A program made the translations under genes and the position numbers. A DNA stretch of 64,000 bases, taken from NCBI GenBank assembly GCA_035764005.1, contig DASTZZ010000003.1, positions 1 to 64,000 of the forward strand, read 5' to 3'. Under the pieces are notes generated by a model. That model was not told the DNA's origin and made no database searches. It was given only the letters and a program-made list of their open reading frames with translations. This stretch comes from Terriglobales bacterium. GTDB taxonomy: Bacteria; Acidobacteriota; Terriglobia; Terriglobales; Acidobacteriaceae. Positions 22,908 to 30,672 of the stretch are shown here, one piece after another; positions within the stretch are counted from its first letter, which is position 1; each line of letters begins with the position of its first letter.

Positions 22908-23363
22908 TTACTTCTTTAGCGCTGCGAGCACCTCTTCCGCGTGGCCTTCGGGCTTTACTTTGGGAAATATCTTCGAGATTCGGCCTTGTGCGTCGATCAA
23001 GAATGAGGTGCGCTCGATGCCCATCGTCTTGCGGCCATACATGTTCTTTTCTTTCAGCACTCCGAATGCTTCACAGAGCTTCTTGTCCTCGTCTGCGAGC
23101 AGTGTGTAAGGCAGGCTATATTTATCTTTGAACTTCTTTTGAGCGTTCGGTGAGTCTTTCGATATGCCCAGCACGACCGTGCCGGCACGCTGCAGCTTTT
23201 CGAACTGATCGCGAAAGCCGCAGGCCTCAATGGTTCAGCCCGGGGTATCGGCCTTGGGGAAGAAGAAGAGTACGACCGGCTTGCCGCGAAAGTCTTTCAG
23301 GCTTACCGGCTGGCCATCTTGATTGGGTACCGCTGTATCGGGGACCTTGTCGCCAATTTCCAT
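22908..23363 (-). CDS. Bcp/PrxQ-type peroxiredoxin, probable selenoprotein (TGA at catalytic position 43)
   Basis: A thiol/selenol peroxidase of 151 residues if the in-frame TGA at 23235-23237 is read as selenocysteine. The frame reads MEIGDKVPDTAVPNQDGQPVSLKDF, KPVVLFFFPKADTPG, then TGA, then TIEACGFRDQFEKL, continuing to the normal Bcp end VLAALKK. In Bcp/PrxQ proteins the peroxidatic Cys sits in TPGCT, so TGA replaces exactly that codon. The resolving Cys five residues on (position 48) is kept. AAGGA lies 10 nt before the ATG. A gene caller would report only the 88-residue piece after the stop. The start codon overlaps that of a possible plus-strand start. Selenocysteine is inferred; a nonsense mutation is the alternative. 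Confidence 0.85.
23214..23228 (-). promoter_or_regulatory. Possible SECIS hairpin in the Bcp-type gene
   Basis: On the minus strand, 6 nt after the TGA, GAGGCC-TGC-GGCTTT can form a 6-bp stem with two G-U pairs. Bacterial SECIS elements lie just downstream of the UGA, so the position is suitable. The fold is short and was drawn by hand, so it remains tentative. Confidence 0.3.
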
Positions 23364-29960: not shown

Positions 29961-30470
29961 TCACTTGCTCGCAGGCTGAGCCAATCGCGGGGACAGCTTC
30001 TCCAGGATTTCAAGCACGTCACGATTATCCGGAGCTTCCCCAAGTTCATACAGCTGCGCGAAGGCAATCTTTCCTTCCTTGTCTACTACGTATACCGCTC
30101 GCTCGTTGATTCCCGGAATGGGATCGCCGGTGCGGAAGACATCGTATTTCTGCGCGACCTCTCCGTGCGGATAGAAGTCGCTGGCCAGCGGATACCGCAG
30201 CTTTCCGATTTCTTTCTCCTGCCAGGCGATGTGGCTCCAGGTGGAGTCAACGCTTACGCCCATGACCTGGGCGTCATATGCGGCGAACGTCTCCAGTTCA
30301 TGACTGTACGCCGTCATCTGCTCGCTTCAAGTCGGCGTCCAATCCAGTGGATAGAACGCGAGCACGACGTTCTTCTTTCCCCGGAAGTCGCTCAGGCGTA
30401 CGCGGTGTCGCCGATCACCAGTCACCGCGGGAAGATCGAAATCCGGAGCTACTGCGCCTACTTCGAGCAC
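29961..30470 (-). CDS. AhpE-like peroxiredoxin, probable selenoprotein (TGA at catalytic position 48)
   Basis: 169 residues when the in-frame TGA at 30327-30329 is read through. GTG at 30470 follows GGAGGGA by 5 nt. The frame reads [42 protein letters not shown], then TGA, then [14 protein letters not shown] and on to the family C-terminus ([40 protein letters not shown]). DWTPxC is the peroxidatic-cysteine motif in this family, so TGA takes exactly the catalytic position. There is no other Cys downstream, consistent with a one-Cys/one-Sec enzyme resolved by an external thiol. The post-TGA part alone (117 residues) cannot be catalytic. Together with the Bcp-type gene this supports selenocysteine use. 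Confidence 0.85.
30294..30320 (-). promoter_or_regulatory. Possible SECIS hairpin in the AhpE-like gene
   Basis: On the minus strand, 6 nt after the TGA, CAG-A-TGAC encloses an 8-nt loop (GGCGTACA) and pairs with GTCA-TGAA-CTG. This gives two short stems around an internal loop, with the apical loop 14 nt past the UGA. Position and shape suit a bacterial SECIS, but the fold is a hand prediction. Confidence 0.35.
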
Positions 30471-30672
30471 TTACGTCCCTCCAACTGCACACACCTATAC
30501 CCGCGAGCGCAGGTCTGTCGGAAACAGGAGGTGGGCAGCCATGATTCTAACGAGGTTTGCTCCGGAGCATCAACTCAGGCAGGAATAATTGTGGGAAGAG
30601 TGGAGAGGGCGTACGAGAACGGAGAAGGAGAGAAGGTCAAGGAAAACGGCGGCTTGATGTCGAGTGTTAAGA

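Follow-up and report, generated by a model that had tools for sequence, protein, structure and literature searches.

A predicted selenocysteine-encoding AhpE-type peroxiredoxin gene in a Terriglobales bacterium and a candidate two-hairpin SECIS element

Selenocysteine (Sec) peroxiredoxins are listed among the known selenoprotein families in the available text of several surveys (PMC1794560, PMC13188914, PMC5029168), and the accessible part of one of them gives three Prx selenoproteins for Anaeromyxobacter dehalogenans (PMC1794560). Such proteins (Prx, TxxU; for example PrxU, NF040737) share with the gene described here a common fold, the PxxxTxxU motif and a UGA in place of the codon for the peroxidatic Cys. 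Earlier surveys that counted Prx as one family may include copies of the lineage of this gene, its Anaeromyxobacter relative being our locus L177. The enzyme is a new Sec peroxiredoxin of a kind already known. Among one-Cys enzymes, AhpE of Mycobacterium tuberculosis (Rv2238c) has a like fold, the same Pro, Cys and Arg positions and likewise Tyr at residue 40, but has Cys where the present enzyme has Sec. AhpE is reduced by the mycothiol/mycoredoxin system.

In eukaryotes, elements near the UGA act beside the SECIS, as does the SRE of SEPN1. According to the portions of the bacterial literature available to us, most bacterial SECIS elements have 16–37 nt between the UGA and the loop, with a subset that misfits (PMC13188914), the bases of the E. 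coli fdhF SECIS are highly variable except for U17, G23 and U24 (PMC8659212), and some bacterial selenoprotein genes lack a consensus SECIS, implying distinct classes (PMC9312934, PMC13188914).

The gene that we analysed occupies positions 29961..30470 on the minus strand of a 64,000-nt stretch of DNA (the window) from a soil acidobacterium of the order Terriglobales; the strand had not been specified in the original prediction. Its frame, 30470..29961, begins with a GTG at 30470, preceded at a distance of 6 nt by a Shine-Dalgarno-like GGAGGG (30482..30477) read directly from the sequence, and closes with an ordinary TGA terminator (29963..29961). The sole internal stop is a TGA at 30329..30327, at the peroxidatic position of the PxxxTxxU motif. 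When this TGA is read through, the product has 169 residues, with Sec at position 48 (U48) within PLDWTPTU and not a single Cys. The original prediction of a complete, GTG-initiated frame with a Shine-Dalgarno sequence, interrupted only at the catalytic codon and leaving the enzyme without a fallback Cys, is thus borne out at each of these points. It had also drawn attention to a second TGA-containing peroxiredoxin nearby, and indeed a Bcp/PrxQ-type gene (22911..23363, minus strand) lies about 6.6 kb away and has a single TGA (23237..23235), also at the peroxidatic position, in the context DTPG-TGA-TIEAC. Since TGA serves as terminator in 11 of the 20 genes listed around the locus, the AhpE-like gene included, a Sec reading must depend on context.

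The predicted protein matches the AhpC-TSA family (PF00578) at 1.1e-32, and structures of M. tuberculosis AhpE are among its best sequence matches to solved structures (about 2e-23). Foldseek placed its AF2 model (mean pLDDT 95.1) closest to 2-Cys peroxiredoxins (5zte), with AhpE (4x0x) at rank 9 (TM 0.84/0.92, the higher value being that to the target; 37% identity). None of the NCBIfam models reaches its cut-off with this product; the PrxU equivalog NF040737 scores 84.4 against a cut-off of 270 bits, and the window copy further differs from PrxU in having no second Cys. P41, residue 48 (Cys or Sec) and R124 are invariant across 20 aligned sequences, and T45 was read in the window copy; we take P41, T45, U48 and R124 to be the catalytic residues of a PxxxTxx(C/U) peroxiredoxin. 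The catalytic residues of the peroxiredoxin motif are covered in part by the text available of PMC13188914. Residue 40, Tyr in the window copy and His in several homologues, separates AhpE-type (Tyr) from Prx6-type (His) enzymes according to the accessible part of PMC12697902. A resolving Cys is absent from the window copy, and many homologues have one to three Cys downstream. The activity would be that of a 1-Sec peroxidase using an external reductant.

The genome is equipped for Sec insertion. It contains a SelA match (3.1e-133, in a 477-aa frame), one tRNA-Sec above cut-off (65 bits, anticodon UCA), a SelB wing domain inside an unbroken 637-aa frame and a selD that carries its own in-frame TGA, so the absence of Sec machinery, named at the outset as a finding that would speak against the Sec reading, is not what we see. 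PF00578 matches number 17 in this genome; five have an internal stop, in every case a TGA and in every case at the catalytic or CxxC position, in agreement with the argument that a chance nonsense mutation is an unlikely explanation. These five are the AhpE-like gene, the Bcp-type gene, an FTGG-U paralogue with an N-terminal extension that by eye resembles a signal peptide, and two UxxC proteins. Together with selD, these Prx/thioredoxin-fold genes (loci L014, L015, L017, L019, L027 and L011) give the genome at least six candidate genes for selenoproteins. One of the UxxC genes, AhpC-like (L019, 1501–1869), has a perfect proximal hairpin with the loop GAGUUC at +27, at textbook spacing.

The AhpE-like gene with its TGA is present in all six genomes of the genus, and TGA also stands in the six FTGG-U paralogues of the genus; a TAA counted in one genus genome (G004) is the terminator of the gene. 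At the level of the order, a match at 1e-25 was obtained in 122 of the 397 genomes. We examined 110 homologues (30 loci from the searches and 80 that were fetched), a set that leaves out 40 further listed rows without a tabulated TGA and unlisted weaker rows, and found the catalytic codon to be TGA in 66, Cys in 22 and Ser in 22. A wider set, made up of the best 80 of at least 560 relatives from GTDB species genomes, has 56 copies with TGA at this codon and 24 with Cys; 11 of the former and one of the latter are also in the order-level set. The TGA thus aligns with a Cys codon and is kept in related strains, two comparisons that the original prediction had proposed. TAA and TAG, which would have spoken against the Sec reading, do not occur at the catalytic codon in the 196 copies that were read. 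Some order-level rows (L030–L144) have an extra TAG or TAA or a second TGA, outside the match or at its end, and two loci (L096 and L114) have two TGA within the match. The 66 TGA copies come from 64 genomes, 60 of which have a SelB wing-domain match and the other four SelA; SelB was found in 168 of the 397 order-level genomes overall. Within the genus, dN/dS is 0.040–0.147 before the TGA (nine finite values from 10 pairs) and 0.046–0.124 after it (15 pairs); by this measure the frame downstream of the TGA is under protein-level purifying selection, with dN/dS as low as upstream. Taken from such comparisons of sequences, the selenocysteine reading of this TGA is very strongly supported.

We placed 185 rows (117 Sec, 46 Cys and 22 Ser) in a quick maximum-likelihood tree with the catalytic column masked; 12 state changes are needed on it. 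Several Cys copies are nested in Sec clades in this tree, which is unrooted and has many weak branches, and this suggests repeated change from Sec to Cys, the root not being inferred. Sec copies are related by descent, and counts of them here and below are not counts of independent events. The Ser copies (AGC, AGT, TCA or TCG; order-level loci L111, L112, L116–L128, L130, L132–L135, L139 and L140) form a paralogue group of 22, mostly with Glu, Asp or Gln in place of the catalytic Thr. In 21 of the 22 genomes that have a Ser copy, the copies read also include one with Sec (18 genomes) or Cys (3), and the Ser paralogue may be an inactive partner subunit. A fixed gene neighbourhood was considered and discarded: among loci with flanks, the frr- and murJ-like flanks (named by eye) recur at just one other, L032. 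Plasmid records hold no close copy (best row 46.9% identity).

We then considered the RNA downstream of the UGA, numbering nucleotides from the T of the TGA as 0. Hairpin 1 (+15..+49; 30280..30314, minus strand) has a conserved outer stem, in which +15..+23 pairs with +41..+49, and a variable apical part. Across 66 Sec copies (65 distinct) 81.2% of the cells of this stem are paired, compared with at most 48.1% when slid by 1–3 columns and at most 53% within six columns. Changes on both sides of a pair occur in 22 cells against 5.7 in shuffles, none of 500 shuffles being as high. Pairing amounts to 47.1% in 13 of the 22 Cys homologues at order level, which is no higher than in shuffles, to 41% when all 22 are taken, and to 56% in the 22 Ser copies. 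Synonymous recoding of +12..+53 gives a mean z of −2.14 for Sec copies (−2.89 for the window copy), +0.31 for the 13 Cys copies and +0.27 for Ser copies. Scanned along the gene in Sec copies, the signal peaks at +12 (−2.42), is weaker at +54 (−0.96) and lies between −0.32 and +0.06 elsewhere. In the window copy, the hairpin-1 region folded alone is only a little more stable than dinucleotide shuffles (z −1.20), 25 of 200 being as good. No invariant or near-invariant column is found in the apical sequence between alignment columns 20 and 42. Hairpin 1 fits the 16–37 nt spacing in several copies, the apical loop starting for example at +30 in L031.

Hairpin 2 (+55..+73; 30256..30274, minus strand) has a nearly invariant stem, formed by +55..+61 and +67..+73, and a GGUNN loop (+62..+66); in the window copy it is a 7-bp stem with the 5-nt loop GGUCA, a probable SelB-binding SECIS core. 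In GGUNC variants, one more pair may close the loop. Its loop starts with GGU like that of fdhF, which is GGUC, and both its loop (consensus 3–9 nt, with G in the first two positions) and its stem (4–16 bp) lie within the consensus ranges. Its spacing does not: 59 nt separate the UGA from the loop, against a consensus of 16–37 nt, and the loop is at +62 rather than at +21 as in fdhF, with an extra conserved hairpin in between. All 66 order-level Sec copies have the GGU loop, as do 48 of 56 wider ones and all six FTGG-U paralogues; outside Sec copies it is found in 7 of 22 (order) and 6 of 24 (wider) Cys copies and in 5 of 22 Ser copies. Once repeats of the order-level set are removed, 45 wider Sec copies are left, with GGU (37) or AGU (8), and by record titles GGU among them extends over seven phyla (Acidobacteriota, Nitrospirota, Bacillota, Myxococcota, Chloroflexota, Vulcanimicrobiota and Actinomycetota). 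A scan of codon choice brought out this block in Sec copies, where codons +19, +20, +22 and +23 are GCC in 64 of 64, CAG in 66 of 66, GTG in 34 of 34 (Val) and GGC in 42 of 44 (Gly), with little such bias in the Cys set.

Mean pairing of hairpin 2 is 0.89–0.92 in Sec, 0.68–0.70 in Cys and 0.62 in Ser copies, and when slid by six it is still 0.52–0.64 in Sec. Some of this pairing is imposed by the protein motif, so that bare pairing separates the groups less well than the recoding test, which allows for it. By that test, GGU together with the five inner pairs occurs in 82 of 111 distinct Sec sequences against 12.0 expected, and in one of 46 Cys sequences (45 distinct) against 2.4 expected. The fit is not uniform: a C·A mismatch occurs in 21 of the 66 order-level copies, and of 12 single folds of 84 nt the minimum-energy structure lacks hairpin 2 in three (L091, L108 and L161). 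Pair 56–72 is U-A in most copies and C-G in the window copy. In 34 of the 66 Sec sequences hairpin 2 alone is 99.2% paired, and the two-hairpin structure as a whole 95.1% (at most 41.8% when slid).

Considered together, hairpins 1 and 2 give recoding z-scores of −2.48 and −2.50 in the 66 order-level Sec copies and of −2.84 and −2.20 in the 45 further Sec copies, the Cys and Ser sets giving −0.23 to +0.07. On these comparisons, both hairpins are under synonymous constraint in Sec copies and not in Cys or Ser homologues, an observation that is new here and has no counterpart in the original prediction. When mutual information was computed, unsupervised, for 111 Sec sequences (effective number about 44), the first of the pairing-enriched pairs was 17–47 of hairpin 1 and the second 56–72 of hairpin 2; the third, 66–92, belongs to neither. 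Since RNAalifold returned no consensus structure on the Sec alignment, we turned to counting pairs explicitly, to recoding nulls and to mutual information. A closing helix (+3..+16 with +70..+94) that would make a three-way junction, seen in some single folds, lacks covariation support and was dropped. Farther downstream, at +96..+158, order-level Sec copies show a further weak folding bias (mean z −0.59), and the wider ones show none (−0.07). Rfam has no match to the two-hairpin element at E up to 1, and a two-hairpin bacterial SECIS was not found in the literature searched, which was available in part and whose silence is no proof.

Readings of the TGA that do without selenocysteine fare poorly against these data. 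Were the gene a nonsense pseudogene, Table 11 would rightly end its frame at the TGA, and a 118-aa ATG frame does begin four codons later; this is nonetheless extremely improbable given the same TGA in six of six genus genomes and 66 of 110 homologues, the downstream dN/dS of about 0.05–0.12 and the Sec-specific RNA constraint. The ATG frame (29961..30317) might instead be used for a restart that yields a truncated, non-catalytic protein, a reading to which we give only marginally more credence, its Met being replaced by Val, Leu, Ile or Thr in other Sec copies and the segment before the TGA being under the same purifying selection. That the frame is open once the TGA is read would also be explained by a genome-wide sense meaning of TGA (an alternative code) or by unspecific readthrough; with TGA ending 11 of the 20 listed genes, this one included, aligning with Cys at the catalytic codon and occurring in genomes that have Sec genes, such readings are as improbable as a pseudogene.

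A more serious contender accepts that Sec is inserted and takes hairpin 1 alone to be a conventional SECIS, with hairpin 2 accessory or serving another role. Hairpin 1 is at the textbook place, its apical loop in several copies within the 16–37 nt of the UGA that the available text of PMC13188914 gives as the rule, and its constraint is equally strong. Its loop is unconserved, however, whereas E. coli SelB reads the loop bases G23 and U24 (PMC8659212, as far as its accessible text goes), and it is hairpin 2 that has GGU in 66 of 66 copies. We regard this alternative as unlikely, though well ahead of those above.

The reading that we prefer, and consider probable on the strength of these sequence patterns, is a one-Sec AhpE-type peroxiredoxin whose Sec is inserted through docking of SelB on hairpin 2 with the assistance of hairpin 1. 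Hairpin 2 shares the GGU of fdhF, though it lies 59 nt from the UGA, and is therefore proposed as the SelB site, with hairpin 1 as an element that shortens the spacer or causes pausing. In this scheme SelB-GTP-Sec-tRNA would dock on hairpin 2 via the GGU loop, and hairpin 1 would either shorten the path from there to the A site or delay the ribosome at this codon, with insertion of Sec in place of termination as the outcome. The mRNA entry site of the ribosome is expected about 12 nt past the UGA, where hairpin 1 starts. The enzyme would use its selenolate to reduce peroxides or peroxynitrite and, since it has no Cys of its own, the resulting selenenic acid would have to be reduced by an external reductant, a thiol or hydrosulfide. 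The arrangement resembles the SRE of SEPN1 in placing a hairpin just past the UGA in addition to a separate SECIS, but is bacterial and within the coding sequence, with the second hairpin about 60 nt away.

The same layout does not extend to Sec genes in general. For the Bcp-type gene, whose TGA is kept in six of six genus genomes, a 7-bp hairpin with GGUC lies at +52..+69 in the six genus copies. In a comparison of 30 Bcp loci, drawn from many more matches, a GGU loop at the distal hairpin is found in 7 of 14 Sec copies (six being the genus copies, so that only one of the eight more distant ones has it) against 4 of 16 Cys copies, and the five inner pairs in 10 of 14 Sec and 6 of 16 Cys copies. 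The distal hairpin is thus no general rule, failing in Bcp beyond the genus. As the hairpin of the UxxC gene L019 is at textbook spacing, a single genome may use both layouts of SECIS.

The SECIS of the AhpE-like gene looks like a distinct two-part class. We lean, by a smaller margin than for the mechanism at this locus, towards a bipartite class of bacterial SECIS in which SelB would act on a GGU hairpin about 59 nt downstream and an intervening hairpin would restore reach or pause the ribosome; such a SECIS would be ancient in a 1-Sec peroxiredoxin family that mostly encodes Sec and is present in several phyla, and would be lost when UGA changes to Cys. Acidobacteriota have been credited with few selenoproteins, namely four in the available text of PMC1794560, and three known selenoprotein genes are given for Occallatibacter riparius in that of PMC12013277. 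The accessible part of PMC5029168 defines a selenoprotein-rich organism as one with six or more selenoproteins, and the at least six UGA-interrupted genes of the present genome would satisfy that definition. The AhpE-like Sec family is a concrete, covariation-supported candidate for a distinct SECIS class and predicts where SelB would bind, at a hairpin that a fixed search window of 16–37 nt would miss.
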